From assembly GCF_963675165.1 (NCBI RefSeq), contig NC_087380.1:1665803-1729802 (forward strand): a stretch of DNA of 64,000 bases, in the 5' to 3' direction. The translations under genes and the position numbers were made by a program. The notes beneath the pieces are model-generated. The model did no database searches, was not told the DNA's origin, and saw only the letters and a program-made list of their open reading frames with translations. The first letter of the stretch is position 1; every line of letters begins with the position of its first letter. This document shows, piece by piece, positions 2,668-44,287 of this stretch. The DNA is from Halichondria panicea (Eukaryota; Porifera; Demospongiae; Suberitida; Halichondriidae).

Positions 2668-7256
<4,589 letters not shown>

Positions 7257-8121
7257 AGACTATCGCCAATCATAATATGAACTGTTGTATGTGGTACATG
7301 ATAGATTTGTGTTGTACTAGACTATAGTCTAACTTTGAGTTTTAATGCATCTGTGTGTATGGCTTTATGTGTTATTATAAATTGTACAGACTATAGACAT
7401 ACATAATTATATTATGAGGGCGGATAATTAATGAGACGCCTATATTACGTGTATACGTAATAACACTGCGCATGTGCGGTGAGCTTGAGTTTTAGCCTCG
7501 TTCCCAGGCCTTGGTTTAGGGCGTTCTGCTGTCAATCAATATAGTTGAAGCGCATGCGTATCTGATCAGCAATTGTGGGTGTATCTCATTGAGGGTGTGT
7601 CACTCAGCATCTCTAGCAGCTCGCGATCGGCGCGGCACTGATACCACAGATAGTAGAGGAGACCACATCCCCTCTACTATCTATGCTGATACAGTACACA
7701 GCTATGTACAGTGTACCTTTCAGGATTAAGCACAAGCACGGCTAGCTACTGAACGCTGAAATACAAGCTAGACAGTGAGTAATTACTTACTGTATGCTAG
7801 ACATTGTTGGTGGTATGAAATTGCTATAAAGTCAGCATGTACATTAATACATGTATATTAACGAGCTAGTATAAGTACTTTACTGGGTGTATATAGTATC
7901 TAGTTAACTGTGAACAGTAGCTTTTAATAGCCATACTTACAAATAATTATAATGATGTGAATGCAGCAATCGCCACAGCACTATAATAATATTAGATCTA
8001 TCATAAGCTTTGTGCATATTAATAGGAACGTAGATGAAAGCTGGTGAGGCTTTTAACTGTACAAATATGCCGACTGTATAAATACCGGCTGCCACTCTAC
8101 CCATATCTATGCAGCTCGCTC
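7257..8121 (+). promoter_or_regulatory. Intergenic region and putative 5' region of PH/WW/Gly-rich gene copy 1
   Basis: 865 bp separate the LRRC40 stop from ATG 8122. Segments from about 7470 and again from about 7700 (CTTTCAGGATTAAGC, then AAGCTAGACAGTGAGTA) recur upstream of copy 2 at 31020-31300, so this flank was part of the duplicated unit. The conserved CAG-GTGAGT-like sites suggest an untranslated 5' exon. A hairpin with arms GATAGTAGAGG and CCTCTACTATC lies at about 7650-7683. No TATA box is assigned. Confidence 0.4.
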
Positions 8122-11100
8122 ATGGCCACTCCAGCAGTCCCTGCTCACGATGGAGGACCTCCCCCAGACGCACCAGTGCAGCAAGCAATGAGGGAGAGAG
8201 AGCCCAGCCTCAAAGAAGGATTCATTCAGCCTTGTCAAGGCTACCTCAGGAGGAGGTCCAAGATCCTTAAACGGTGGAAAAAAGAATGGCTGGATGTAGT
8301 ACCAGGTATACTGATAAGATAAGCGCTGCACCATACCCAGATAATGCAACTAGCTTGATATTATAGCTGATAAATAATTCTGCTAATTTTGATTTTGGTG
8401 ACTTACCATTTGTAACGATGTTCACGCATTCACAGTGCATCCTTATTCTACTTATTTATTAGTACAATTGTGTCTACCATTTAGTACATCAGAATGTTGA
8501 TTATTAAGATGTCATTGTTGATCACTATCAGTATATCCGGCACAAGGGACTATTATCGCTGGTATTCATAGTTCTAGAGTTACCATTAGAATGCAATTAT
8601 GATTGTGAAGACCACCCCAAATAGTTACATGTCTACTATTCTTTACACTTCATACTTCATAGTTTTACACTGAAAGCTAAACAGTTTGTATTGTATGATT
8701 GCACTCTTACCTTTTAGTGATTCATGAGGTTAGGGAGGTTAGGGCTTTCCCGGTAGGGTTCCCCACTATTACCTTTTAGTGATTCATGAGGTTAGGGCTT
8801 AAAATAACTTCCCGTTAGGGTTCCCCACTATGACAATTGGGGTTTCAACTCAAATTCCTCACTATTACAACCTCTGATTAATGCCACTGATTGACATAGT
8901 TTACGCTCTCTTTTATGCACAGGACCGATGAATCACCAACTTGTGAAGCATGGCAAACGCCGCTCTGTTCTGCACAATTTTCAAACTGCAGCTCCGAATC
9001 TCCAAGTGGAAACAGTTAGTGACGATCCGAACAACAAAGAGTTTCTAACATTTCGATTGGTCAATATCGAGACCCAAGAAGAGTTAAGCCGCTATCGTGC
9101 AGAGAACATTGTACAGATGAGACGATTCATGGCTTCTCTTGGAGCCAAAGGCCCGGGAATGTTTACAAAAGAAGACGAAATAAGTAGAGCAGTTGCAATC
9201 GAAGCCATCCACGGCCTCTTTGACGTTATCCATCCTTCTGAAGACGAAGTCTATCAACGGCAGCAGATGTTCCAGAATCATAAGAAAACAGAGGGTGAAG
9301 GGGAAGTTATCAGCAGGCCGGCAGATGCACCACCTTCCTACAATGAAACTCTTCAGCAGCTTCCACTCGGATTCTATTTCCCAACAGACGGTGGAATTGT
9401 TTTAGGCGAAACGGCCGTACAAGTTGTCTATCCAGGCACTGCTATCCCCATGTATGATCCGAATGCACCATTGCCAAAGTCCTATCGAAGACCATGGCAC
9501 GATACCTTTCGACCCCCACATGGCCCACCTGTGTTCTACCCTGTCAGTATCGGCTATGGAGCTGAAATTGGTCTCGCACCTGCACAGCAAGCACTCTGGG
9601 ATCCTGTTCAAAAGATCTACTTCTTTCTTGACCATATAAACAAAGTGACCTTCTTTGAAGACCCTCGACCACCCTTGGATCCGATTCCAGTTGTTACTAA
9701 ACAACAGACAAGTTATGGGGACAAAAGACGTGAAGCGTTGATTCCTCCCGGAGTATGCTCGGACCATTCCGTCATCAAAGCCACTACTCAGAGAGCTCTC
9801 TCAAAACCACACGGGCACATCCTCTATGCTTGTGGTGTTCATGGTCAGCACGGAGCACACGGCCTAACAGGAGCTACTGGTCATCCTGGAGCTCACGGAA
9901 TACCCGGAGTATTTTCAGGCGCTAACGGAGGCCCCGGGGGACCTGGCGGACCGGGAGGCCCAGGCACACCTGGACTGAGGGGCCAAGATGGAACTGAGGC
10001 TAGTGATGTTATACTGAACATTTGGGGTGATCCGAATCAACTGAACGTTTCCGGTACATCATCATTTGTCGCTGAATTGGGTGGAACTCGAGTTGAAGAA
10101 GTGTTGTTTGTCAACTGCCGAGGTGGTAATGGTGGACACGGTGGTCGTGGTGGAGATGGTGGTGTCGGAGGTTTTGGTGGTCCTGGTGGAAGTGGTGCAT
10201 GTGGACATCACGGTCATAGCTCATCTTCTGGTCCTGGTGGTAATGGCGGTCCTGGTGGTGACGGAGGGCCGGGTGGGGTGGGTGGACCTGGTGGATCTGC
10301 AGCTCGAGGTGGTGATGGTGGCCATGCTCAGTTTGGTGGTGTGTGCGTTCTACAATCGACTGACCCGAGACTCCTGATGCTTGTCGAAGCTGACTGCATG
10401 GAAGGAACCCCTGGAACAGGTGGTGATGGAGGCACCGGTGGTCAGGGTGGAATAGGTGGTAGTGGCGGTCATGGCGGTCCTGGTGGGTCCGGGGGCAGTG
10501 GTGGAAGTTATACGGATTCCAATGGCCATAGACATAGTTACTCAAACGGAAGTTCAGGTTTCAGTGGCCACGGTGGCAGAGCTGGATTTCCTGGACCAAA
10601 GGGGCCGAATGGAGAGAGAGCAATTGATGGGCAACCTACAAACAATGGTGCTATACTTTGGGTGATCGGTTCTCCTGAAGGTGGAGTGATGCATCAAGCA
10701 GCCACTCGATACGACGCTGAAGTTACCGATATTCGAGTTATCTCTGCAATTGATGACGGAATCTTCGAGCCGAACGAACGGATTCTTGTTTCTAGTGTTG
10801 TAGTGGTGAACAGTGGCGGTCTTCCTTTACCAACTAACGTTGATGTTTTCATGCCTTCAACAAAAACAATTCAATTTGAACCCACCCGATTTGAGCTCCC
10901 TACCGAACAGCTATTTCCAGGACAAAGCTTCACTGTGCCGATTACCTACCATGGTAGGATCTTTGACCAGCCACCTCCGAATGTTTGCGGACCATTTATT
11001 TCTTCTGCTCAGTTCCACCCACGAGCCGAACTACTTGGTAGACCATTCGAAAAGTCATTCCTCCATCAAAAACTTGTTGTTCAGTATCCTGTAAAGCTTG

Positions 11101-12800
11101 CTTATCTCAAGTGTTCTGAGAATCTCGGTCGAGGAGAAGTGTCCGTACTTGATATAGGAGTCCAAAATATTTCCACCATGCCGTACGGAGATGTTCCTGG
11201 CTCTGGAGGAAAAGTGGTGCTTCAAATTCACTTGGATGCAAGAATTATCCCAGTTGGATCTGCAAATGTGGGCATCAATGTTGTCCCTTACACCATCACC
11301 TACGATCCTATTGCCAAAGACAGCATGTACATTCAAGTCCACGATATTCCACCTGGAGCGACAGTAAACGTACAAGTCACAGTTCAAATGGAAAGTCGAG
11401 CAGAGCTGTTTGATCGGTGCTACTGGCAGGCTGACCTCTATCTCCGCGACAAGCTCATTGAGTACAATTTTGAAAAGATTCGAGTCACTCCGTTTTATCT
11501 CCCCAAAGACCCACCTGCTGACGTCCTCATGATCACCAGTGAATCCATCACTCGGAAAGAATTTGTTTTCTGGCAGCGTGTACTGGAGATTCTTGGAGTC
11601 ACTGTGGACTTCTGGGACACCACTCGATACAGCGGCTTGTCTATCGACTCTCGTACCAACACACGACACCAGACCACATGGGAGGGCCGCTACACTGGCA
11701 GTTTGATGCTCTACCCTCACTGCAACCTGAATCTCCTCTATGGGATCGATATTGTGCGGCATTTCCACGGACAGGACTATCGCGACAACCCTTTGAAAGA
11801 GATGCACTCTAGTGCTGTATTTTTCATGCCTGAAACAGTTGCGAGGGGCAGACAGGGAGAAAGCAACTACGATCGAGGGGACCAAGCTGTACAAAGACAT
11901 CTTAGTACTGTAGAAGGTGCAATTGAAGTTGAAGAGGGAACATACGGTGGCAAGCATTTATTCCGACCTGGCTCATGCTGCGTTACTCCAAGGCCGTATC
12001 TCAAATGGGAGAAAAAACATTTGAAAAAACTCGAAAAAGAAGTTCCAACTCTTTCCCCGGTGGTGATTGCGCGTACAGTCAACATTCAATCGACTGGCAC
12101 CTTTAAGTATGACTACGGTACCGTTGATGTCCGTCGTATGACTATACTTCGCTCGAGCAAATTTCTCATGGTTGATGGAGCTGGTGGAAATTATGTTGAC
12201 ATGAGCTTGGATGACCCCAACCTCCACCCTGGAGCTACTGAAGTGCCACTGGCCAGCAACTATGCTCAAGTTTTCCTAGCCACTCTGTATGGAATACCCC
12301 TACGCGTCAAGATCAAGCTTCTAAAGAGCACTCCCGAGGAGTCTACTGAAAGCCCCGGTTCTCAAGTATCTTGCTTCCTACCAAACGGCCTCAGCCTGTC
12401 AAGACAGGACCTCATCATGATATGCATTGCTTGGGAGATTGCAGACGAAGTGTACAGCTGCTCTGGAAACGCCACTCGAATGCGAGAGCTTGCACAAGAC
12501 GTGGAATCTAATACAGCTGTTTATGTAGCACACGGTCGAGTAATTCTTCGAGGAATGGAATTGATTGCAAAAGAAGTCAAGCTTCGAAAAAAGAAAGTGA
12601 GCAATGCTCAAGTGAGCCTAGCCATATCCGAGATTAACAGACACACTCAAAGCATCTCCCAAACTCTTCGTAGAAGTGGAGTGGATAACAGAAATTTAGA
12701 ACCGCTTGTGAGCTTGGCCTATCTCCAAGACAATGATCGAGTTCATCGCTCTCACCAGCACTGGACTGGGGATGACCGTTGGAACCTGTGTGGACTCTAA
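8122..12800 (+). CDS. PH-like / PPxY / WW-like / collagen-like Gly-rich protein, copy 1 (1353 aa)
   Basis: Two exons: 8122-8305 and 8923-12800, joined in phase 1. Residues about 33-135 resemble a PH domain (GYLRRRSK...RWKKEWLDVV, then strands and a closing helix). PPSY at 198-201 is a WW-binding motif. A WW-like domain at about 284-312 keeps the first Trp (287) and the TxxEDPRP end, but has Phe 306 for the second Trp. Collagen-like or GG-X blocks lie at about 366-416, 461-529 and 556-627. Residues 659-923 are beta-rich, starting with the acidic DDGIFEPNER segment. Residues 927-1013 look alpha/beta (Rossmann-like). The C-terminus is helical and basic. There is no signal peptide or membrane span, so it is probably cytosolic. 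The core resembles large Gly-rich proteins of filamentous fungi labelled DUF7932, by recall and not by search. Function is unknown. Confidence 0.88.
8709..8833. repeat. Tandem duplication of about 60 bp in the intron of copy 1
   Basis: The phrase ACCTTTTAGTGATTCATGAG followed by GGTTAGGG and GGGTTCCCCACTA occurs twice in tandem here. Copy 2 has the phrase once (about 33002-33058), so the tandem step arose after the gene duplication or was lost from copy 2. Confidence 0.75.
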
Positions 12801-13000
12801 ACCGATAGACTGTTGAACATTGTTTGAAAATAGAATTTAGCTTTTATTAATTATTATCTAGCTGTTGAAAACACTGTTGAAGTTAGCATCTCTTATTAGT
12901 ATCTAGTTTTAATGTTTTGTGCCCTTCTGCGTGTAAACTTTCATCATTTTAATTATAATGGTGAAATTGAAATGTGAACACATGGTACTACATAAAAGAT
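12801..13000 (+). other. 3' UTR/flank of PH/WW/Gly-rich gene copy 1
   Basis: This 200-bp flank matches 37025-37215 after copy 2 (TTGAACATTGTTTGAAAATA, then TTTTGTGCCCTTCTGCGTGT). It is interrupted by the MITE at 13001. A diverged version also lies at about 44680-44840. No clear AATAAA was found. Confidence 0.6.
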
Positions 13001-13802: not shown

Positions 13803-14486
13803 TAATGAAAGCACCACGGGTGCTGATGCCTCGGTGGAGGTGCCAAAGCTACATAACATAAAGCTACTATAGCTAGCTTTTATACACACATTGATTATAT
13901 AATTATCATGATGAATGTTGCTGCATGCAGAATCCAGAATCACAGGGAAACTCAAAGAGTGGGTAATGATCGACGATGATTGTTGTTAATAACGATCGAC
14001 GCCAAAAATTCAAGTATAATGGTAGCTAGCCTCGATTCCAGGCCGATTCGGCCTTGAATCGAGGCTAAATGGTAGCTCGATCCCAGGCCGATCCGTCTCT
14101 AATTGAACGCTAGGTCGCCTCCTCGGCCTGGTATTGATTGTATCTGGGCGTGCTCTTATTGGCTCCACCTCGATCAGGCAGAGCTAACTACTAAGTAGAG
14201 TAGCAACACTCGGTGAACAAGTTTTGCTACGGACTCTTCTGAAAAGGCTGCAATGGCATTCCAAGTAAGCAAAACTAGGCATAACTCGAGAACGAAGCTT
14301 TATTTTGCAAATCCACAAATACCAAGCCAAGAAAGCATGACTAGAAGCCTATAGAAACTCTTACTTGCACTTCATTGATCCTTGAGCAGCTGAAACAGTC
14401 TACACACACAGACACACAGACACACAGACACACAAACACACTACCGTATACCTCGCTTGCGCATGCGCACCGAGGCATAATTATTA
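13803..14486 (-). mobile_element. Repeat family A, near full-length copy with a nested foldback
   Basis: One end is GAAAGCACCACGGGTGCTG with CCTCGGTGGAGG. The other end is TACCTCGCTTGCGCATGCGC with CCGAGGCATAA, preceded by a CA-type run. The same sequence is found in opposite orientation at 15414-15968 and in this orientation at 47364-47909. The copy here is enlarged by the 41-bp foldback at 14027-14067 and adjoining extra sequence. It is non-coding. The two facing copies make a large inverted repeat with arms of about 310 bp or more. Confidence 0.75.
14027..14067. mobile_element. 41-bp minimal foldback element with 9-bp target duplication
   Basis: Two 20-bp arms, TAGCCTCGATTCCAGGCCGA and its near-complement ending GAATCGAGGCTA, lie back to back. 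They are flanked on both sides by AATGGTAGC (14018-14026 and 14068-14076). The ends match the larger TAGCCTCGA family elements in this window. It sits inside a family A copy. Confidence 0.85.
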
Positions 14487-15413
14487 AAGCAATCTGAAAG
14501 TATCTGTTGAAAAGAAACAAGAAAGATTGGAGAGAATTCCAGGGACAACAATGTAATCTACCAAAACTATTAAATTGCAAGAACTGATTCAATTTGCACA
14601 CGAAACAAGACAAGAGTAATCTACTGTATTAATTAGAAGCTGTCAACAGAGTTGTATCATAGATTTATGGCCTTAATTAAATCTACATCACACTAAAAAC
14701 GAGTTATTTAGACTAAATGAAATTGACAGAAAAGTTGCTTTTAAAGATCAAGAAACAGATACAAGCGTAAGGTGGACATTGGATGAGAGTTCTGAAACAT
14801 GATACAATATACTGAAAAGATAGCATGGTTACTTTAAATCCAAAAGAACTCTCTGAAGCAGGAGACATCATAGTAGATATCTATTCATACTGTTATAGGG
14901 ACATCATAAAGATATACATTACAGAAACATTATAAACTTCATAATAGATATCAAATTGTTACAATGTTAACTCCTGAGTCCTGAGTGTCCATTTCATACT
15001 TTTTTAAAAGAGAATAGACCAAGCGGTTCAGCAGATAAGCTAATTTTAACAACAAATTTCATAAGTCCCGCCCAAGTACATTAAAATGCGGTAAATTTTT
15101 GTACGAATTTTTTCCTGACTAGTATAGTGTTGTTCTTCAAAACGCCTTATCTCTGCATTCCCTTGACCAAATCCAGTGCAGTAAAGTTTTTATGGTTTGC
15201 CTAGAGTGTTCAAAAGAGATAGACTAGTAATACATAGGAGTTAGAAATAGCAAAAATGAAAATCGGTCTGACATCAAAGAGTAAAGGTCCTTAGTGAAAC
15301 AAACTGTAAATTCGGCTTAATTAAAAGTCAGCATAGCTATAGCCTATAGCATAGCTATTGTAAGAGTTACTCAACAATAATATAAGTTCATCGACAAGCT
15401 AGGGGTGATCGAT
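14487..15413. other. Non-coding spacer between inverted family A copies
   Basis: About 930 bp of A/T-rich sequence with no supported gene. Around 15281-15330 the phrase AAAGAGTAAAGGTC...TTAGTGAAACAAACTGTAAATT matches spacer sequence at about 37235-37280, 44800-44840 and 50960-51000. This part is therefore a displaced fragment of the duplicated gene flank. Confidence 0.5.
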
Positions 15414-15968
15414 AATTATGCCTTGGTGCGCATGCGCAAGCGAGGTATACAGTAGTGTGTTTGTGTGTCTATGTGTTTGTGTGTGTGTGTGTGTAGACAT
15501 TTCAGCTGCTCAAGGATCAATGAAGTGCAAGTAAGAGTTTCTATAGGCTTCTAGTCATGTTTTCTATATGTGGTTTTCTATATGTGGATTTGCAAAATAA
15601 AGCTTCGTTCTCGAGTTATGCCTAGTTTTGCTTTATTACTTGGAATGCCATTGCAGCCTTTTCAGAAGAGTCCGTAGCAAAACTTGTTCACCGAGTGTTG
15701 CTACTCTACTTAGTAGTTAGCTCTGCACTAGAACGCTAGCTGCAAGAGTGAGAAGAGAGCTGCAAGGCTCTGCTGACTTGCAGCCATTAATTTTAGACTT
15801 GAACTTTTGGCATCGATCGTTTTTAACAACATTCATGGTCCATCATTACCCACTATTTGAGTTTCCATGTGATTACAATGCAAAAATGTTCATCATGCAG
15901 CTAGTAGTTTTATGTTATGTAGCTTTGGTACCTCCACCGAGGCAGCAGCACTGCGGTGCTGTCATTAT
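15414..15968 (+). mobile_element. Repeat family A copy, inverted relative to 13803-14486
   Basis: It starts ATGCCTTGGTGCGCATGCGC, passes a TG-rich tract, then GCAAAACTTGTTCACCGAGT, and ends CCTCCACCGAGGCAGCAGCA. It is the reverse complement of the element at 47364-47909 along most of its length. No transposase is encoded. Confidence 0.75.
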
Positions 15969-20538: not shown

Positions 20539-21169
20539 CTGCAACATGGAGCAGATCTCAGACTTTTTCAGCTAGTTGCAAGGAAGCAGCCTTATCTCCT
20601 CTCACTCTCAGTGCAGTCTGGGTAGGCATTGTGATTCTTTCATGTACCAAGAGTGCATGAATGTAGATGTAACATCTACAGTATATACATCCTTTTGTTG
20701 ATCAGAACGAGTTTTTTGTATTAACTTTTTCATATTCAGTATTCACTTATTAATATGACAGTTCAAAGGTAAAAGTGTGAGCAAATTGTAAAAAGCAAAA
20801 AAGTTCGCCTCGCCATGCTCCCCCTCCCATACCCACCCCGCTCTGCCACCCTCGTACGGGGCTTCGCCCCTTTCTACTAGCCCCCCCCTTTCATTTTTCC
20901 TGGATCCGCCCCTGCAGAGAGCTGCAAGGCTCTGCTGACTTGCAGCCATAATTTTAGACTTGAACTTTTGGCATCAATCATTTTTAACAATCATGGTTGA
21001 TCATTACCCACTATTCGGTTGATTGCATGCAGCAAAATTAAAGATGTTCATCATGACAATTATAATCAATGTGTGTATAAAAGCTAGCTATTAGTAGTTT
21101 TATGTTATGTAGTTTGGCACCTCCACCGAGGCATCAGCACCTGCGGTGCTTTCATTGTTTACTGCAAGG
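20539..21169. repeat. CGGATCC-type right end plus partial family A repeat
   Basis: At about 20860-20913 lies the right end CCTGGATCCGCCCCTG. It is followed at 20914-21160 by the distal half of repeat family A (GCTGCAAGGCTCTGCTGACT to CCTCCACCGAGGCATCAGCA). No gene is supported. Confidence 0.6.
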
Positions 21170-31019: not shown

Positions 31020-31606
31020 ATGTGCGGTGAGCTTGAGTTATAGCCTCGTTCCCAAGCCTTGGTTTAGGCATAGTTAGGGCGTTCTGCTGTCAATCAATTA
31101 TTATAGTTGAAGCGCATGCGTATCTGATCAATTTGTGGGTGTATCTCAGCAAATTCATTGAGGGTGTGTCACTCCTCCTCAGCATCTCAAGAGAATAATA
31201 CTCGACACTACGTACATGCAGCTACGTACAGTGTACCTTTCAGGATTAAGCGCAAGCACAGCTAGCTACTGAACGAAATACAAGCTAGACAGTGAGTAGT
31301 TAGTTACTGCATGCTACATACATTGTGTTGGGTAGTACATAGTATGAAGTATAGCTTCACATTAATTTTAGTATAATTATTATATAGTATACGTATACAA
31401 GCTAGCTACATTGCTGGTTGTAGTAGTTAAATGTGAACAGTAGCTCCTAGTGATACTTGAAAATATAATGATGTGAATGTAGCAGCAATCGCTACAGCAC
31501 TATTATATGCAAGCTTTGTGCATTTTAATAGGAACGTAGATGGAAGCTGGTGAGTATAGCTTTTAACTATAAATACCGGCTGCCACTCTACCCATGCAGC
31601 TTGCTC
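31020..31606 (+). promoter_or_regulatory. Putative 5' region of PH/WW/Gly-rich gene copy 2
   Basis: Matches the copy 1 upstream region from about 7470 (GTGCGGTGAGCTTGAGTT, then GCGTTCTGCTGTCAATCAAT). The stretch that contains the GATAGTAGAGG hairpin in copy 1 is missing here. AAGCTAGACAGTGAGTAG and AGGAACGTAGATGGAAGCTG are shared and could be 5' UTR exon boundaries. Confidence 0.4.
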
Positions 31607-34600
31607 ATGGCCACTCCAGCAGTCCCTGCTCACGATGGAGGACCTCCCCCAGACGCACCAGTGCAGCAAGCAATGAGGGAGAGAGAGCCCAGCCTCAAAG
31701 AAGGATTCATTCAGCCTTGTCAAGGCTACCTCAGGAGGAGGTCCAAGATCCTTAGACGGTGGAAAAAAGAATGGCTGGATGTAGTACCAGGTATACTGAT
31801 AAGATAAGCGCTGCACCATACCCAGACATGCAATAGCTTGATAATATAGCTGATTAATAATTCTGATTCAACCTAATTCTGATTCAACTGAGAACAAATT
31901 TATGGTGACTTGCCATTTATAATGATGTTCACGCATTCATAGTTGTTCTATTTGTTAATTGTGTCTACCATTTAGTACATCAGAATGTTGATTATTAGAT
32001 GCCATTGTTGTATATCCGCACAAGGGACTATTAAATTTATCGCTGATATTCATAGTTACCATTAAAAATGCAATAATATTATGATTGTGAGACCACCCAA
32101 TAGTTAGCCTCGTTCCCAGGCCTTACTTTTTCTTGCTGTTGTCATTGTTCATCCAAATCATAGAAGACATAGTGAGGCAGCAAAGAAAGAAATGGGCGTA
32201 CAGTTAAGAAAAAGTAAGGCCTGGTTTGGGAAATCGCGTGATCCACAAGGATTTTTATGAACGTGGACGATATGTAGCCCACAATCGTGACGTAAGGTAT
32301 TCTCCCACGCATTCAGAGTTTTAATAAGACTGTACTGAGACAACCACCAAGCTGTGCTGCAAGTCAGATCAGAGAACCAGCGTGGCCAGCTCTGGTGGCA
32401 GTAGCTACCTGCTATATGATAATGATGACTAAGCTATTCTTGATCTAACCTGTATAGACTATAGCATGTAGAAAGACACAAGAAAAGGTGATAGTAGTCT
32501 GATAGAATAGGATAGAATCTGAACACACAATCTAGACTAGTAGATCATCTAGCTAAGCCTAAGGTATAGCTAGCTCTAGTGCTTGCAAACTTCCAGTTCC
32601 AAGTCCATGTCCAGCTTGCTGCAGGCAAAGTTTTATTAGTCATAGATCTCTGCGTGGGCAGTCCAACATCTAGCTCAGCATGCCCACGCTCATTTTCACC
32701 CTTCTACCACCCTTCTACCCTCACGCGACTTCCCGATACAGGCTCTCCTTTTTCCTAACTTTACGTCTATTTCTTTCTTTATTCCTCCAATTAATACCGT
32801 ATTTTATCTCATTGAACGATTAATACAGTATTTTATCTTATTGAACGATTGTGATAAAGAACAGAAAAAGGAGAGCCTGTGTAGAGGCTACCCAATAGTT
32901 GCATGTCTACCAATCTTTTACACTTGACAGTTTGTGTTTTGTATTGTGTGACTGCTACTACTACTTTCAGTTCTCACAAACCATGAGATATCTCGTGTTA
33001 TACTTTTAGTGATTCATGAGGTTAGGGCTTAAAATAACTTCCTGGTAGGGTTCCCCATAATGATAATTGAGGTTTCAACTTAAATTCCTTACTATTACAA
33101 CCGCTGATTGATGCCACTGATTGACATAGTTTACGCTCTTTATGTACAGGACCGATGAATCACCAACTTGTGAAGCATGGCAAACGCCGCTCTGTTCTAC
33201 ACAATTTCCAAACGGCAACTCCGAATCTCCAAGTAGAAACGGTTAGCGACGATCCAAATAACAAAGAGTTTCTAACATTTCGATTGGTCAACACCGAGAC
33301 CCAAGAAGAGTTAAGCCGCTATCGTGCAGAGAACATTGTACAAATGAGACGATTTATGGCTTCTCTTGGAGCCAAAGGCCCGGGAATGTTTACAAAAGAA
33401 GACGAAATAAGTAGGGCAGTTGCAATCGAAGCCACCCACGGCCTCTTTGACGTTATCCATCCCTCTGAAGACGAAGTCTATCAACGGCAGCAGCTCTTCC
33501 AGAATCATAAGAAAACCGAGGGTGAAGGGGGAGTTATCAGGCCAGCAGATGCCCCACCTTCCTACAATGAAACTCTTCAGCAGCTTCCACTCGGATTCTA
33601 TTTCCCAACAGACGGTGGAATTGTTTTAGGCGAAACGGCCGTACAAGTTATCTATCCAGGCACTGCTATCCCAATGTACGATCCGAATGCACCATTGCCA
33701 AAGTCCTATCGAAGACCGTGGCACGATACCTTTCGACCCCCACACGGCCCACCTGTGTTCTACCCTGTCAGCATCGGCTATGGAGCTGAAATTGGTCTCG
33801 CACCTGCACAGCAAGCACTCTGGGATCCTGTTCAAAAGATCTACTTCTTTCTCGACCATATCAACAAAATGACCTTCTTTGAAGACCCTCGACCACCCTT
33901 GGATCCGATTCCAGTTGTTACTAAACAACAGACAAGTTATGGGGACAAAAGACGTGAAGCGTTGATTCCTCCCGGAGTATGCTCGGACCATTCCGTCATC
34001 AAAGCCACTGCTCAGAGAGCTCTCTCAAAACCACACGGGCACATCCTCTATGCTTGTGGTGTTCATGGTCAGCACGGAGCACACGGCCTAACAGGAGCTA
34101 CTGGTCATCCTGGAGCTCACGGAATACCCGGAGTATTTTCAGGCGCTAACGGAGGCCCCGGGGGACCTGGCGGACCGGGAGGCCCAGGCACACCTGGACT
34201 GAGGGGCCAAGATGGAACTGAGGCTAGTGATGTTATACTGAACATTTGGGGTGATCCGAATCAACTGAACGTTTCCGGTACATCATCGTTTGTCGCTGAA
34301 TTGGGTGGAACTCGAGTTGAAGAAGTGTTGTTTGTCAACTGCCGAGGTGGTAATGGTGGACACGGTGGTCGTGGTGGAGATGGTGGTGTCGGAGGTTTTG
34401 GTGGTCCTGGTGGAAGTGGTGCACATGGACATCACGGTCATAGCTCCTCTACTGGTCGTGGTGGTAATGGTGGTCCTGGTGGTGACGGAGGGCCGGGTGG
34501 GGTGGGCGGACCTGGTGGATCTGCTGCTCGAGGTGGTGACGGTGGCCACGCTCAGTTTGGTGGTGTGTGCGTTCTACAATCGACTGACCCGAGACTCCTG

Positions 34601-37024
34601 ATGCTTGTCGAAGCTGACTGCATGGAAGGAACCCCTGGAACAGGTGGTGATGGAGGCACCGGTGGTCAGGGTGGAATAGGTGGTAGTGGCGGTCATGGCG
34701 GTTCTGGTGGGTCCGGGGGCAGTGGTGGAAGTTATACGGATTCTAATGGCCATAGACATCATTACTCAAGCGGAAGTTCAGGTCATAGTGGCCACGGTGG
34801 TAGAGCTGGATTTCCTGGACCAAATGGGCCAAATGGAGAGAGAGCAATTGATGGGCAACCTACAAACAATGGTGCTATACTTTGGGTGGTCGGTTCTCCT
34901 GAAGGTGGAGTGATGCATCAAGCAGCTACTCGATACGACGCTGAAGTTACCGATATTCGAGTTATCTCTGCAATTGATGACGGAATCTTTGAGCCGAACG
35001 AACGGATTCTTGTCTCTGGTGTTGTAGTGGTGAACAGTGGCGGCCTTCCTTTACCAACTAACGTTGATGTTTTCATGCCTTCAACAAAAACCATTCAATT
35101 CGAACCCACCCGATTTGAGCTCCCTACGGAACAGCTGTTTCCAGGACAAAGCTTCACTGTGCCGATTACCTACCATGGTAGGATCTTTGACCAGCCACCT
35201 CCGAATGTTTGCGGACCGTTTGTTTCTTCTGCTCAGTTCCATCCACGAGCCGAACTACTTGGTAGACCATTCGAAAAGTCGTTTCTCCATCAAAAACTTG
35301 TCGTTCAGTATCCGGTAAAGCTTGCCTACCTCAAGTGTTCTGAGAATCTCGGTCGAGGAGAAGTGTCCGTACTTGATATAGGAGTCCAGAATATTTCCAC
35401 CATGCCGTACGGAGATGTCCCTGGCTCTGGAGGAAAAGTTGTGCTTCAAATTCACTTGGATGCGAGAATTATCCCAGTTGGATCTGCAAATGTGGGCATC
35501 AATGTTGTCCCTTACACCATCACCTACGATCCTATTGCCAAAGACAGCATGTACATTCAAGTCCACGATATTCCACCTGGAGCGACAGTAAACGTACAAG
35601 TCACAGTTCAAATGGAAAGTCGAGCAGAGCTGTTTGATCGGTGTTACTGGCAGGCTGACCTTTATCTCCGCGACAAGCTCATTGAGTACAATTTTGAAAA
35701 GATCCGTGTCACTCCGTTCTACCTCCCCAAAGACCCACCTGCTGACGTCCTCATGATCACCAGTGAATCCATCACTCGGAAAGAATTTGTTTTCTGGCAG
35801 CGTGTACTGGAGATTCTTGGAGTCACTGTGGACTTCTGGGACACCACTCGATACAGCGGCTTGTCTATCGATTCTCGTACCAACACACGACACCAGACCA
35901 CATGGGAGGGCCGCTACACTGGCAGTTTGATGCTCTACCCTCACTGCAACCTGAATCTCCTCTATGGGATCGATATTGTGCGGCATTTCCACGGACAGGA
36001 CTATCGCGACAACCCTTTGAAAGAGATGCACTCTAGTGCTGTGTTTTTCATGCCTGAAACAGTTGCGAGGGGCAGACAGGGAGAAAGCAACTACGATCGA
36101 GGGGACCAAGCTGTACAAAGACATCTTAGTACTGTAGAAGGTGCAATTGAAGTTGAAGAGGGAACATACGGTGGCAAGCATTTATTCCGACCTGGCTCAT
36201 GCTGCGTTACTCCAAGGCCGTATCTCAAATGGGAGAAAAAACATTTGAAAAAACTCGAAAAAGAAGTTCCAACTCTTTCCCCGGTGGTGATTGCGCGTAC
36301 AGTCAACATTCAATCGACTGGCACCTTCAAGTACAACTACGGTACCGTTGATGTCCGTCGTATGACCATACTTCGCTCGAGCAAATTTCTCATGATTGAT
36401 GGAGCTGGTGGAAATTATGTCGACATGAGCTTGGACGACCCCAACCTCCACCCTGGAGCTACTGAAGTGCCACTGGCCAGCAACTATGCTCAAGTTTTCC
36501 TAGCCACTCTGTATGGAATACCTCTACGCGTCAAGATCAAGCTTCTAAAGAGCACTCCCGAGGAGTCTACTGAAAGCCCCGGTTCTCAAGTATCTTGCTT
36601 CCTGCCAAACGGCCTCAGTCTGTCAAGACAAGACCTCATCATGATATGCATTGCTTGGGAGATTGCAGACGAAGTGTACAGCTGCTCAGGAAACGCCACT
36701 CGAATGCGAGAGCTTGCACAAGACGTGGAATCTAATACAGCTGCTTATGTAGCACACGGTCGAGTGATTCTTCGAGGAATGGAATTGATTGCAAAAGAAG
36801 TCAAGCTTCGAAAAAAGAAAGTGAGCAATGCTCAAGTGAGCCTAGCCATATCTGAGATTAACAGACACACTCAAAGCATCTCCCAAACTCTTCGTAGAAG
36901 TGGAGTGGATAACAGAAATTTAGAACCGCTTGTGAGCTTGGCCTATCTCCAAGACAACGATCGAGTTCATCGCTCTCACCAGCACTGGACCGGGGATGAC
37001 CGTTGGAACTTGTGTGGACTCTAA
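31607..37024 (+). CDS. PH-like / PPxY / WW-like / collagen-like Gly-rich protein, copy 2 (1352 aa)
   Basis: Exons 31607-31790 and 33150-37024, same phase 1 join as copy 1. Domain order is identical. It differs from copy 1 at about two dozen residues plus one deleted Ser near residue 192, roughly 98% identity. Changes cluster in linkers and the Gly-rich blocks: Cys to His, Ser to His and Phe to His there make copy 2 more His-rich. The PH-like segment, PPSY motif, WW-like domain (again Phe for the second Trp) and the C-terminal half are nearly unchanged. Many nucleotide differences are synonymous, which suggests both copies are constrained or recently converted. The intron is 1359 bp against 617 bp in copy 1, mostly because of a 786-bp insertion at 32105-32890. 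Function unknown. Confidence 0.88.
32105..32890. mobile_element. 786-bp TAGCCTC-ended element in copy 2 intron, 9-bp target duplication
   Basis: Starts TAGCCTCGTTCCCAGGCC and ends GAGGCTA, flanked by CCCAATAGT on both sides (32096-32104 and 32891-32899). It holds internal inverted arms CTTACTTTTTCTT/AAGAAAAAGTAAG and GGCTCTCCTTTTTCC/GGAAAAAGGAGAGCC. The copy 1 intron has the uninterrupted site CCCCAAATAGTTACATG at about 8614-8630. Confidence 0.88.
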
Positions 37025-37955
37025 ACCGATAGACTGTTGAACATTGTTTGAAAATAGAATTTAGCTTTTATTAATTATTATCTAGCTGTTGAAAAAAACA
37101 CTGTTGAAGAGTTACTCTTATTAGTATCTAGTTAATGTTTTGTGCCCTTCTGCGTGTAAACTTTTATCATAATTTTATAGTCGGAAATTGAAATGTAGTA
37201 CTACATTGGTAAAGATCATTAACTAAACAAAAGATTATTTCAAAGAGTAAAGGTCGTTAGTGAAACAAAATGTAAATTCGGTGTACTCTTATGTCCTAAA
37301 AAGCAGTACTTCTATGCTGCCCTAAAAATCAGTACCTTATTTATACCCCTAAGCGGTACTGGCCACACCGCTTTTTACATGTGTTAGAGACAGACTGAAG
37401 GATTTCCAGTCGCTGAGCTTCTCTGCAGTACTTGCTACTACTAAATGGGACGAGTATCAGAGCTCGCCCCAACTATCTGAAGAATGCAAGGAACGTTAGT
37501 CACATGCAAACCAATTTACTCATGAAAATATATTAATAATATAATTTATAATATTATTATCAATAGCAAAATAATTGTCTATGTTTTACATTTTACATAA
37601 TTATTCTGAACAAACGTTATACTTATAATTAGAAGCAGTAGTAAAATGTGTCAATTGTAATTGTTTCAGGGAATACATGTACAAGGAAAATGATGGAAAG
37701 GTGCATGAGCAATCTTTTTCTCTCACAAGCCAGATGTTTCATGCCATCCCTATTTTTGGGTCTGGCTTCCGTGAGACTAGTAAATACGGTCAAAACCATG
37801 GCCACACAATATAATTATACTGTACTAATTTTTCACTTATAGACAACTTCTAACTTCCTGTTGCCCTAATTTATTATAATTATAACCGGTATCATGGAGT
37901 TATCTAGTCACATTAATTTTGTTTAGTCTACATAGTTGGTGCTGTAATAGCAGCA
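37025..37955 (+). other. Spacer between copy 2 and the GPCR gene
   Basis: The first 190 bp are the 3' flank shared with copy 1. AAAGAGTAAAGGTCGTTAGTG (about 37240) recurs at three other places in the window. From about 37665 the sequence matches 21950-22221 upstream of the GPCR pseudogene and is probably the GPCR promoter and 5' UTR. No gene. Confidence 0.5.
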
Positions 37956-40900
37956 ATGCAGGCACATGCAGTGTCAGTGTTAGTGGTTTTGGTAGCATTG
38001 TCAGCTACTCCAATAGAACCAGCAATACTCACTCTGACCACCAACTCATCTGAAAACTGTGGCAAAGGACTCACTCATAATGGAGTGTTTGTGCTGGTGG
38101 AGTATCGTTTGATAGAGACACAACCTAGCCCATGGACGCTCCTTCAGAGTATTAGCTTGAATGCTACAGGTTTGCCTATAATATATACAACAGCTAGATC
38201 TATACCTATATGTATTATGTTCCACAATCATACAGTTGGCTTCACGAAATCCCAGATAGATATTATTACACCTGGAAATCTTCTGCCAAATGACACGATA
38301 CAGCTGCGGATCGTTCAGCCAGAACATGGTGGTGGTTCCTGTAACTGCTGGGGAGTGGACGAACTGAGTTTTACATCAACTAATGGAAGCAGTGTCAATG
38401 TTTCTTGGTAAGTAGATCACATGGCTTGATTATCATGGTGTATAAGTGTTTACTATAAATTATACCCATAGTCAGGACTGTTGTGCATCTAGTAGTCCGC
38501 CGATGGATAGTGATATCGAGAGTGACTACCCTGTACCGTTCTGTGGTGGCAGTGCCAGTGTACCGAGAGGAGTGGTCTTTCCTCCCGTGGGCCTGAGTGG
38601 CTCAGAAATACTATCGGAGTGTCCATTGAATTCTGTGTTAGTTGATGACAAAGGACAGCCTCCAACTAATTGCTCAAATGAAGAGCCAAGAATGTAAGTG
38701 TCTAAATGTTGTTGCCTGAGAGTTGTGCAATATATAGTAACTGTTCGTTCTCACAGGGAGATATCATTTGAGCTGAATGTCAAACCGATTGATTGTTCTC
38801 CCAGAGGCTTTGATGAGGGTGTTGAGATTTCAGTTGGCGGCTGGGAGAATAATGGCCAATGGATACCATTAATGTATGTTGCAAACACTATTGATAGAAT
38901 ACCAGATCGACTCAATATCAATATTGGTGCCATAAATGGGAGTACAGTCAAAATCAGAGGCTACGATGTCCCCTACCACTTACGAAGTGAACCAGAGGAA
39001 ATTTTTTTCAATTTAACAGTTTGTGGTGCAGCTGTCCTGAGGAATGGTATTCGAATAAGGTGGCTTCAAACTGGTGCAATGTACCTCAGTGAGGAAAGCT
39101 ATTTGAGGGATGTTGTGACGCTGAACAATGTATTTCAGAATAGTATTCTGCTAAATAGCACCAATTTTACCCTGCGCAATAGTGAAGTCCCAACATCGTC
39201 GACTATTGATTGTGTTCGCCCATTTAACGGTATCATTGCCATTTCAACTAATGGAGCAATAATTTTTGGAGCATTGTGTGAAACAGAAGATTGTAAAATT
39301 AAGAACAGAGTAATAACAGCAAGTAGAATTGCCACCACCATCCCACTAGACACCAGTGAATATAACTCGAAAACTCCCACTTTCACTGAACAGCCTACCA
39401 TGGCTATCACGGAGCAGGCTACCACTGAACAGCCTACCATGGCTACCACGGAGCACGCTACCACTGAACAGCCTACCATGGCTACCACTGAGCAGGCTAC
39501 CACTGAACAGCCTACCATGGCTACCACTGAGCACGCTACCACTGAACAACCTACCATGGTTGCCACGGAGCAGGCTACCACTGAACAGCCTACCATGGCT
39601 ACCACGGAGCAGGCTACCACTGAACAGCCTACCATGGCTACCACGGAGCAGGCTACCACTGAACAACCTACCATGGTTACCACGGAGCAGGCTACCACTG
39701 AACAGCCTATCATGGCTACCACGGAGCAGGCTACAACTGAACAGCCTACCATGGCTACCACGGAGCAGGCTACCACTGAGCAGGTTACCATGGTTACCAC
39801 GGAGCAGGCTACCACTGAACAGCCTATCATGGCTACCACTGAGCAGGTTACCATGGCTACCACGGAGCCGGCTACCACTGAACAGCCTACCATGGTTACG
39901 ACGGAGCAGGCTACCACTGAACAGCCTACCATGGCTACCATGGAGCAGGCTACCACTGAACAGGTTACCATAGCTATGGCAAATCTAGCAAGTGCATTCT
40001 CAAATTTATCAAAATTGGTGAGAGTCTATATAATTTCATATTCATAAACATTTTGTGGTGCGTTTCTTCAGGTAAACAACGATAAGGAATTAATGGCGAT
40101 TGACACACAGGTGAGTGCCAACTTTCCCCTCCCACACACGTTCATTTTAAGTGTAGGTTGCTTGTATGTATACACACATCCTCCTACTCATTGTATACAC
40201 ACATCCTCCTACTCATCGTATACACACATCCTCCTACTCATTGCATACACACATCCTCCTACTCATTGTATACACACATCCTCCTACTCATTGTGTACAC
40301 ACATCCTCCTACTCATTGTGTACACACATCCTCCTACTCATTGTGTACACACATCCTCATACTCATTGTATACACACATCCTCCTACTCATTGTATACAC
40401 ACATCCTCCTACTCATTGTGTACACACATCCTCATACTCATTGTATACACACATCCTCCTACTCATTGTGTACACACATCCTCCTACTCATTGTGTACAC
40501 ACATCCTCATACTCATTGTATACACACATCCTCCTACTCATTGTATACACACATCCTCCTACTCATTGTATACACACATCCTCCTCACTTGCATGCGTGT
40601 ATACGTAAGATCATGCACTTGTCTATATAGTTATGTACACACACAGCCTCTCTTTCTCATGTATTGTATACACTGATGCAGCCTCTTTCTCATGCAACCA
40701 TCGTTGTATATACATTACATGCATGCATCCAGCCTCTTTCTCATGCAATTAGCATTGTATATACATTACATGCATGCATCCAGCCTCTTTCTCATGCAAC
40801 CAGCGTTGTATATACATTACATGCATGCATCCAGCCTCTTTCTCATGCAACCAGCGTTGTATATACATTACATGCATGCATCCAGCCTCTTTCTCATGCA

Positions 40901-43900
40901 ATCAGCGTTGTATATACATTACATGCATGCATCCAGCCTCTTTCTCATGCATTGTATATTCATATACACACATGCAGCCTCCTGCACAAGCTGCTATGTC
41001 TCTGAGGATGGTGATAGAAAGTGCTCAAGTTGTCGAGACAGCCATCGCATATCTTCTGAGCAGGATAGTCATCAGAGCTATGGATGTTAGTAGTCCTCAA
41101 TAATTTGCCAGGGTAAAAGATTACGTTATATTGGATCTCCCACTCTAATGTGATTATGATTTATTTAGGTTGTGGTGGATATCGTCGACACACTAATTAA
41201 TAGAACATTCATCAATGAACAGGTTTGTAAAAGCGAAGATACCGTATAGAGGGAGCCGCAAAAATGCCTTTAGAAAGGTTATTTTTGCGGAATAGCAGCC
41301 TTTTTGCAGCATGCATGCAATATTAAATTCGTGGGTATAAATGTTTGCGGTATTATGCTTAATCAGCAAAAACCACAAACATATATAACCTCGAAATATA
41401 CTCGCTACGGTACTTTGATTTCAATCACTTTCTCATGTGTACACACACACAGTCCAACACTATCGCTGGCAGTACTCTGTTAGCTACTGTCGGGAGTCTG
41501 GCCCTCAACGTACTACCTCCAGACACGAACATCAATACACAAAACATAGGTACGGTACTTGCTCTGGTTTACTGTTTACTTTGGCACAAAAGCCAATCTT
41601 TGGGCCCACATTCCTTAATAATAATTATGGTATTGGTGCACTATGCTCTAATTACACAGCTCATTGAAGACAAAGATGTCTTAGTTTTCATTCCACAATT
41701 ATTACTGATTGAGCTAGGAATTTCCCACTACTGTTTTGGAGGTGTCTAGAAGCCCAATTAAGGTACTGCTTATAGTATTCCGAGCGTAGCAAGGGTACTA
41801 TATATACATGTACCTGAGGGCTTCTAATTACATGGACGCCGATAAAACATTGTAATTTGTTTTTCGTCATTAATTTCCCCAGAATTATTTGTGTTTGAGA
41901 CACAAGTGGACAATAAAGATAGATACTTCACTAGTATTAATGCGCGTAACATCTCTATTCAAGTGCCCACTGAGTTAGTGAGGATGGTAGCTAATGGAAC
42001 AACTGGAACAACTGTGGCCTCAGTCTACTACAGGAACATGAGTGGACTGCTGCCCGGGACTCTGCTGGGAGAGAGGGACACTGTGTTAGCATCTCCAGTG
42101 GTCTCCACCAGTCTGCAGTGTGGGGACAAGATTTGTGACACAACTAACATTCAGCTCAGTCAGCCAGTCATTGTCACACTGAAACACAGCAAATATGCAC
42201 AAGTAAGGCTTGCATGGTAGTCGATCTTATCTAACACTTGTATTGATTTGTCGATTATACAGGCTGTTATTGAAAAACATGATACCAATGAAGCAACTTG
42301 TGTATTCTGGGAATTTATAACTGCCAGGTATTGTAGTCTATAGAGGTGCATATAATTTATGGTTTCCACATATGCAGTAGTGAAAATCCTCTGGCCAATG
42401 GACGATGGAACACTGAAGGATGTGTGAGAAATGACAAACTCTCCAACTCCACACAGACGGTGTGTGAGTGCACACATCTCACCAACTTTGCCATTCTCCT
42501 CAGTGCACGGCCACTCAACCTACCCTCTGGTGTGGCACTGTCTCTCTCAATCATTGGCTACATTGGAGTGTCTCTATCTGTGATTGCCATGTTGGCCACT
42601 ATTATGGCCTTGGTCATTCTTAGGTGAGTTAATTATACTGTGGAGTGTTTCAATTGACAATAATTATATAGGACCTTGTGGAACATGCGCAACTACATCC
42701 ACATCAACCTATGTGTGAGTCTAATTCTGGCACAACTGATGTTTGTGATTGGGGTGACCCCTCACGGAGGAGGAGGTGTGGTGGATCCTGGTTGTCGGAC
42801 AGCAGCAGTTCTCATGCACTACTTGTTCCTGGTGTCCTTCATGTGGATGCTCATGGAGGGGGTGGTCTTGTATCTGGTCCTTGTCAAAGTCTTCGTAAAA
42901 GAACATGAACGGAAATACATTTTCAGCTTCACTATTGTCAGCTATGGTATGTGTAAATTCAACTGACATTGTTCATCCTCTCCCTATAGGTGCCCCTGTA
43001 CTGTACATGGCCCTCTGTATTCCATTGGGCTTTGCTCTATCTGGCCTGGAGGATAGCTATGGCTATCAGCTGGTCAACAGCAATACAACTACCATAGTGT
43101 GAGTTTAGTCGCTCTCTTATCGAGACCCAAGTATGCATGTGTGCGTACGTATACGGTTGTACATGCATACACCAATCTTTATGTTGATATTCATGATGGA
43201 GTGTCCTCTAAAGGAGCGTTGGTAATATACCAGTTAAGTGCATGTCATTCCTATGTTTTCCGGCTGTGTCTGCCTTGAGCGACCCCATGCAGAGTCAAGT
43301 TATATGATTTTCTCACCAATTTCACACTATAATTATAATTATACCTGTACTTGTGTTTGCAGCTGCTGGTTGAACCCCATCACTAACTTTATTCTGACGT
43401 TCATTGTGCCAGTGGTGGTGATTCTCTTGGTGAATGTCGGCTTCTTTATCATGGCAATAGTTATCATGCGGAGACACCAAAAAAGGCAAGGGAAGACACA
43501 GGAAGTGAGGTATGTGGCTATGTATATGATACTGACCAGGAGTTCATTAATGAACTCTTGTATAGACACATAATTATTTGCACTGTGCTTGAAGTGTTTC
43601 TGATATATACATGCAGTTCTTGGTTGAAGACCTCTGTGTCACTGGTCACTGTCATGGGACTGACATGGATAACTGGTGAGAATAATATAATATGTGAGAT
43701 TTTGATGCCATTATCAACACACGCAGGTGTTCTGGTGTTCGAGGTCCCTGCTCTACTACCAGTGTCGTACATCTTCACGATCTTCGTTTCATTCCAAGGA
43801 GTGGCCATTTTCATACTTTTTGTGCCTCTCTCTGTGCCAGTGAGGGATGCGTACTCCAACTGGTTGAAGGAAAAGTTGGCAAAGCATCGATATCAATTTC

Positions 43901-44287
43901 ATTTTAAAAGCACCAAGGTATATCACTAACAAATCCGATCGTAATTACATGCCAGTGTATATAATTAGCTATGTACATTATTCTGCACTTCAGTGTGCCA
44001 CTCTCAGCAGTGTCAACACCAATGTTACCTCTCCATCTTTGGATAGTTCGTTGAAACTGGAGTCTAATATATTCAACTCGACCATGGAAAGAGAGTCAGG
44101 TGTGTGTTTGCACAACTTAGAAGATGTTTGTAACATAACAATTGAGCTTGGTGTAACTTGTATATATATAGGCACCCTCCACCATGCATGGCCTCATTGT
44201 ATAGTTATATTCGCATTTCTTCTAGTACTGGCCAAAGCTACATGTAAAAATGATACACATGCATGGTGTTTTGACCCCATATATTAA
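37956..44287 (+). CDS. Adhesion-type GPCR with mucin-like stalk, GAIN/GPS and 7TM (1288 aa, 17 exons)
   Basis: Exons: 37956-38407, 38472-38693, 38757-40017, 40072-40110, 40978-41085, 41169-41222, 41453-41549, 41883-42202, 42263-42327, 42378-42623, 42672-42946, 42990-43098, 43363-43509, 43617-43675, 43727-43917, 43994-44099, 44172-44287; sum 3867 nt in frame. A signal peptide is at about 1-20. The N-terminal segment ends in CNCWGVDELSF, reminiscent of reelin-type sandwiches but unassigned. Residues about 435-630 are Thr/Glu/Gln repeats. A GAIN-like region leads to a GPS with the Cys/Trp pattern and CECTHLTNFAIL, where self-cleavage occurs between Leu and Thr. Seven hydrophobic spans follow with family-B2 features (NYIHINLCVS, LMEGVVLYL, GLTWITG). 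The tail has an extra hydrophobic stretch. It is expected to be a cell-surface receptor; the ligand is unknown. The 40978-41085 donor (GTTAGT) is weak, and the last intron could be retained without frame change. Confidence 0.88.
39386..39975 (+). repeat. 39-bp coding minisatellite (13-aa TTEQPTMATTEQA unit)
   Basis: About 15 tandem units of a 39-bp repeat encode Ala-Thr-Thr-Glu-Gln-Pro-Thr-Met-Ala-Thr-Thr-Glu-Gln with few substitutions. The Thr-rich sequence suggests an O-glycosylated stalk. The unit length is a multiple of three, so copy-number change keeps frame. Confidence 0.93.
40165..40588. repeat. 25-bp intronic minisatellite
   Basis: About 16-17 tandem units of TATACACACATCCTCCTACT CATTG, with variants CATA/CCTA and TGTA/TGTG. 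It lies in the intron between GPCR exons 4 and 5. Its lack of stops in several frames is a consequence of repetition. Confidence 0.95.
40681..40960. repeat. 51-bp intronic minisatellite
   Basis: Unit starts recur at 40681, 40732, 40783, 40834, 40885 and 40936, each GCCTCTTTCTCATGC followed by a TATATACATTACATGCATGC segment. It fills the rest of the intron before GPCR exon 5 at 40978. Confidence 0.95.
41240..41412. mobile_element. TACCGTATAG-family MITE in a GPCR intron
   Basis: 173 bp with left end TACCGTATAGAGGGAG and right end CTCGAAATATACTCGCTACGGTA with small differences. It has interior TTTTTGCGG / CAGCAAAAACC phrases. Same family as 13001-13334, more diverged. Confidence 0.75.

Follow-up and report, generated by a model that had tools for sequence, protein, structure and literature searches.

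The gene at positions 8122-12800 of a 64,000-nucleotide stretch of the sponge Halichondria panicea (contig NC_087380.1; the whole stretch is referred to here as the window) raises the question of whether its product, in which PH-like, PPxY and WW-like modules precede glycine-rich blocks, is a collagen or something else. The two exons (8122-8305 and 8923-12800, forward strand) give a joined product of 1353 amino acids. In the sequence, and for the C-terminal part in an AlphaFold model, its modules follow one another in the order PH-like domain, PPxY motif, WW-like domain, Gly blocks, two beta-sandwiches and an alpha/beta part with a helical end. We tentatively read the protein as an intracellular sponge scaffold in which the PH domain would provide membrane docking, the WW-like domain and PPxY motif assembly or recruitment, and the Gly, sandwich and alpha/beta parts a rigid body; this reading, whose functional steps we infer, is the likeliest of those considered, though possible rather than probable. 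The features of the gene are given below with their basis in brackets, P0155 being a protein of Amphimedon queenslandica and the 70-row alignment one that includes the window protein.

8122..8305, +, exon 1: N-terminal tail and PH strands 1-2, GYLRRRSKILKRWKKEW (sequence; same exon in the second copy)
8306..8922, +, intron, phase 1, GT..AG (sequence)
8923..12800, +, exon 2: remaining protein and stop codon (sequence)
8233..9140, +, PH-like domain, joined residues 38-134, split by the intron (PF00169 match, P0155 alignment)
9330..9341, +, PPSY (PPxY) motif, joined residues 198-201 (sequence; 70-row alignment)
9573..9674, +, WW-like domain (profile search, alignment)
9834..10649, +, Gly-rich region: GGX-dominated runs flanked by GXY or mixed ones, with strand-like spacers (run count, alignment)
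10716..11087, +, DUF7932 (PF25560), a beta-sandwich in the model (Pfam; AlphaFold; fold comparison)
11088..11495, +, second, Ig-like beta-sandwich (AlphaFold; fold comparison)
11523..12797, +, alpha/beta part with Rossmann-like element order, long beta hairpin and C-terminal helices (AlphaFold)

The exon junction and the N-terminal modules

The splice model has its start ATG at 8122, a GT donor at 8306, an AG acceptor at 8921-8922 and a stop codon ending at 12800; joined residue numbers are those of the exon 2 protein (P0001) plus 62. The junction of exon 1 with the glycine-rich exon, on which the preliminary description of this DNA depended, is supported by P0155 (NCBI name 'collagen alpha-1(XXVII) chain-like'), which holds both sides in one sequence. 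It is 50% identical to the window protein over 343 amino acids, an aligned stretch that begins at residue 29, crosses the junction and reaches the first of the Gly blocks, and it has the same module order. A matching exon is present in the second copy described below, and in a paralogue on another contig (C2) the upstream exon reads GWKKRWFRI and then a phase-1 donor, comparable to exon 1 of the window gene. The open reading frames (ORFs) of many homologues start slightly upstream of the same point as exon 2, as would be expected if a predictor unaware of introns halted there. Exon 1 has no signal peptide visible by eye, which agrees with the preliminary description.

The PH-like domain proposed earlier is borne out, in that a weak match of the window protein (11.3 bits at E 0.5, covering residues 38-134 and positions 3-100 of the 105 in the model) is in the same register as that of the first 127 amino acids of P0155, which score 28.3 bits and exceed the PF00169 cut-off of 25.1; the whole of P0155 scores 24.0 bits, just short of it. 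The general Pfam scan of the window protein (E≤1) gave no PH match. The best solved-structure match of the P0155 N-terminus is PLEKHB2 (evectin-2), and the likeness to the PLEKHB1/2 PH domains lies in the strand 1-2 motif ILKRWKK.W, although the E value is only 0.03. The PLEKHB2 PH domain is reported to bind phosphatidylserine, with Ile15 and Leu16 shifting nearer the pocket and the K20E substitution abolishing binding (PMC8740049). By our own count, P0155 and the window protein have identical residues aligned to these positions. The remainder of evectin is presumably unrelated to the window protein. The PH domain, the first strands of which resemble this phosphatidylserine-binding domain, might dock the protein on the cytosolic side of a membrane.

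The PPSY motif stands ahead of the WW-like domain as previously noted. Its column in the 70 rows reads PPxY in 31, LPxY in 6 and xPxY in 45, with Tyr kept in 65. A profile made from 12 family N-termini and compared with PDB found 44 distinct sequences at E≤1, all 44 of which are WW-domain proteins by name (9 at E≤0.01; best 7.9e-5). It matches the second half of the domain only, and among the individual stretches shown the best reaches an i-Evalue of 0.045. The Pfam WW model (PF00397) matches three of the 12 family members at E≤1 (best 0.0044) and was not found in the window protein itself in the general Pfam scan. With WW domains of the NEDD4/Itch, MAGI and KIBRA type the family shares the half-domain YFxDHxxxxTxxxDPR; it differs from them in that the place of the second signature tryptophan is taken by F (31 rows) or Y (16 rows), 47 of 70 in all, and the first is displaced or absent. 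Although 64 of the 70 rows retain the closest W, it is displaced, and the two-tryptophan signature is lacking. An earlier tally by regular expression in 107 long proteins (PPxY in 38, WW in 45) is superseded by this alignment. In two homologues of more than 1900 amino acids, P0096 and P0098, long degenerate repeats (RAESIFEEAPDMAQ..., ESPRVSHVQGA...) precede the WW-like region.

A protein that carries both a WW-like domain and a PPxY motif could possibly self-associate. The two elements may pair between molecules, giving rise to a layer or cluster, or alternatively they may recruit partners bearing WW or PPxY. Another explanation of the same pair is that of a ubiquitin-ligase adaptor, whose PPxY would bring NEDD4-family WW domains to membranes and whose internal WW-like domain would be auto-inhibitory. 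The position of PPSY before a domain which could occupy it fits this explanation, as do the closest solved relatives of the WW-like profile, which include Itch, SMURF2 and NEDD4L; with PPxY in just 31 of the 70 rows and hypothetical partners, we consider it unlikely.

Glycine-rich blocks and the C-terminal domains

Residues 304-575 of the exon 2 protein, the numbering used throughout for this region, contain 100 Gly, and at 76 of these positions 90% or more of the 70 rows have Gly. The GXY run at 304-330 (nine triplets) has a second Gly in none; that at 332-358 is mixed (second Gly in four of nine triplets, five Pro). Those at 400-432, 436-459 and 494-529 are GGX-dominated (8 of 11, 7 of 8, with four Pro, and 10 of 12 triplets, respectively), and 542-565 is again GXY, with a second Gly in one of eight. 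The spacers between runs include VEEVLFVNC and GGVCVLQSTDPRLLMLVEADC. Two of the block lengths have their modal value in 42 and 38 of the 70 rows; a regular-expression count of block lengths, whose patterns fitted no more than 44 and 30 of 179 proteins, is superseded by these values. Conserved length and register suggest that the blocks are a folded unit. By analogy they may pack as polyglycine-II, in which case bundled helices of this type, rather than a collagen triple helix, would form a rigid stalk for the sandwich and alpha/beta domains.

The preliminary description had called these blocks collagen-like. This holds for some GXY runs (304-330 and 542-565) and not for the larger blocks, which are GGX-dominated and of near-fixed length, in a protein scoring 17.8 bits against the Pfam Collagen (PF01391) cut-off of 27.2. 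As in fibrillar collagens, every third residue is Gly in short runs; the window protein differs from them in that these runs are short and near-fixed, with a GGX mid-region. A long unbroken GXY stretch is absent, the runs extending for 7-12 triplets. Near-fixed lengths, mostly GGX triplets and the lack of a visible signal peptide make a folded polyglycine-type core likelier than collagen, and the protein is probably not an ordinary collagen. The classical collagen was set aside as the main explanation because of its score and the lack of a long GXY stretch, and kept as a rival: a true collagen-like protein of the extracellular matrix, exported unconventionally or from an unrecognized start. 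In its favour are the name that NCBI gave to P0155, the GXY or mixed runs (9 + 9 triplets at 304-358, 8 at 542-565), the precomputed Pfam Collagen annotation carried by 14 homologues among the best 120 of 156, one of these 14, P0025, scoring exactly the cut-off of 27.2 bits, and the similarity to integrin and adhesin folds given below. It has to contend with the sub-cut-off score of the window protein, the GGX-dominated middle blocks (Pro is 7% over the region, although one run of eight triplets has four), the brevity of the runs and the apparent lack of a signal peptide; moreover PH, PPxY and WW are cytosolic modules. We regard this explanation as distinctly unlikely.

The link to DUF7932 drawn in the preliminary description was confirmed (E 3.2e-18; 66.8 bits, cut-off 27); beyond this domain no Pfam family exceeds its cut-off, and DUF5301 and other weak Pfam matches were judged to be due to chance. 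AlphaFold modelled the C-terminal 702 amino acids with a pLDDT of 90.5 and shows two beta-sandwiches. The beta-alpha-beta order of the alpha/beta part is compatible with a Rossmann-like arrangement; the fold comparison covers mainly model residues 4-287 and gave this part no match of its own. Fold matches include integrin alpha legs, complement domains, and antigen I/II adhesin and pilin domains. Identities in the rows shown are 5-16%, and the two-domain matches have root-mean-square deviations of 6-17, indicating a common fold only. The C-terminal alignment also matched 8zxl, 'spindlefibril' (E 3.9e-19), but this strong profile hit was dropped: no individual stretch of it scores more than about 10 bits, and the stretches are collagen-type repeats with a large composition bias.

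A number of observations weigh against an intracellular scaffold. The PH match of the window protein lies below the Pfam cut-off, the joined N-terminus of the C2 paralogue and homologue P0170 have no PH match at E≤10, and the PLEKHB2 match is weak: of its 26 rows at E≤1, 13 are PH-domain chains and 13 JAMM1 or DNA polymerase. PPxY is missing from its column in 39 of the 70 rows, and the WW-like domain, matched in its second half only, is without both signature tryptophans at the usual places. The extracellular fold matches (integrins, bacterial adhesins, complement) would also be compatible with a secreted protein, and the 14 Collagen annotations, with the GXY run at 542-565, led us to give the collagen explanation more weight and the scaffold less.

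Copies in the genome and relatives in sponges and bacteria

A six-frame search of the genome that holds the window (131 Mb, 39 contigs) with P0001 gave seven rows. Two are the window gene and a further copy within the window, two belong to the C2 paralogue and three are minor. The exons of the second copy, located by genome search and sequence comparison, are:

31607..31790, +, second copy, exon 1
33150..37024, +, second copy, exon 2

This copy (31607-37024) specifies 1352 amino acids and is 98% identical to the first, differing at 23 of 1352 aligned residues; its intron is longer. It lies in a segmental duplication (31209-37211 against 7690-12987) with a coding block of 96.6% and an upstream block of about 80% identity. 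The rates of nonsynonymous (dN, 0.0086) and synonymous (dS, 0.085) divergence give a dN/dS of about 0.1, and a dN so far under dS points to purifying selection on the two copies. They are sisters in a quick tree with long branches (112 rows; homologues with a C-terminal piece outside 560-780 amino acids excluded), the sole use made of it. The third paralogue (C2, 1430138-1424813, minus strand, L019) is 40% and 44% identical in its two rows. Its joined reading ends early at 459 amino acids, yet the downstream sequence still matches, so there is either an extra short intron or a broken gene. Of the minor rows, that on contig C13 (4773770-4773862) is a 30-residue piece that matches part of DUF7932 at 90% identity, is interrupted by two stops and is probably a remnant copy; those on C6 and C27 are weak Gly-rich matches. 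DUF7932 was found at three places in this genome and in none of 14 control genomes, in a search that scores the best candidates only.

Three overlapping homologue searches gave 156 and 199 proteins at E≤0.001 and 95 at E≤0.1, respectively. The first two were limited to the candidates with the most words in common, 7998 and 8000 of them, and listed the best 120 out of 156 matches and the best 120 out of 199, respectively, so that distant relatives may be missed. Only two of those listed carry an organism name, both demosponges (Ephydatia muelleri and A. queenslandica). The gene represents a real, selectively conserved and apparently uncharacterized gene family of sponges, the attribution to sponges resting on these two proteins. 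No fungal name, as might have been expected from the resemblance to fungal DUF7932 proteins suggested earlier, occurs among the listed homologues, of which two are named at all and for which no test of a fungal link was made.

The taxonomic spread is wider than previously described, for myxobacteria and one member of the Bdellovibrionales have the core as well. An earlier contig scan with P0178 found no relatives, and one with A9 found four loci, three from myxobacterial metagenome-assembled genomes and one from such a genome of the Bdellovibrionales. In the phylum of the first myxobacterial relative the core family is over its cut-off in 18 of 377 genomes (that genome counted) and at E≤0.001 in 22. 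The order Gly-rich part, DUF7932, alpha/beta is common to the window protein and the bacterial relatives. The latter differ in starting near their own Gly-rich part, judged by eye, and the bacterial-looking P0178 has neither PH nor WW by Pfam. The Bdellovibrionales relative (L023, 7119-9989) has a hydrophobic, signal-like start by eye, which suggests that bacterial members may be exported. In a comparison of the neighbourhoods of 14 bacterial loci, made with a home-made ORF rule and flanks of about 10 kb or less, 12 loci had the core itself in common (it was missed in L021 and L046), and no other gene family was shared by more than three.

These neighbourhoods bear on a further explanation, a signalling or immune effector with the alpha/beta domain as enzyme and the Gly and sandwich part as sensor. 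The alpha/beta part has Asp, His and Trp residues that are nearly invariant, and the family is multi-copy with a recent duplication, as such an effector might display. Set against this are the lack of any family over cut-off in Pfam, PADLOC (defence) or NCBIfam for the core (one NCBIfam row has E 0.02 and 14.8 bits against 100), the lack of an adjoining gene common to more than three of the 14 bacterial loci, and the purifying selection between the window copies, and we judge it very unlikely. Returning to the intracellular scaffold, one might go further and suppose that sponges took over a bacterial-type Gly-rich/sandwich/alpha-beta module, gave it an intracellular location C-terminal to PH, PPxY and WW modules, and expanded it into self-assembling, phosphatidylserine-recruited polyglycine-II scaffolds, a 'collagen look-alike' layer under the membrane; this we offer as speculation that is improbable as a whole.

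We found no description of DUF7932 or of the sponge or Amphimedon family in the open literature. The claim of an unusual, undescribed system stands as to the architecture, which is real, and its apparent novelty; it is not a one-off, with several copies and 156 homologues at E≤0.001 in one search, and is better called a widespread gene family, new to the literature as far as the searches go, than a unique system. A large, conserved, multi-copy and seemingly undescribed family from an early animal branch, one member of which is labelled 'collagen' in a public database, joins animal signalling modules to a core also found in bacteria. The PH, WW-PPxY and Gly-block predictions are each testable on small recombinant pieces, and if the Gly blocks fold as predicted, the family would provide an animal example of an intracellular polyglycine-type core.

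Other features of the window

Upstream of the gene, leucine-rich-repeat-like exons were noticed by eye at 2869-4055 and about 7130-7255. A pair of inverted repeats of about 310 bases and 93% identity at 14178-15726 looks like a mobile element, with more copies (81-93%) near 20916-21156 and 47366-47901. The ORFs at 37917-43926, in which hydrophobic stretches accompany a long TEQPTMATTEQ repeat, could by eye be a mucin-like or receptor gene. On the minus strand, 48356-48736 and 56663-57545 contain two BTB-like exons and a Rho-like piece, again by eye, perhaps from duplicated RhoBTB-type genes.
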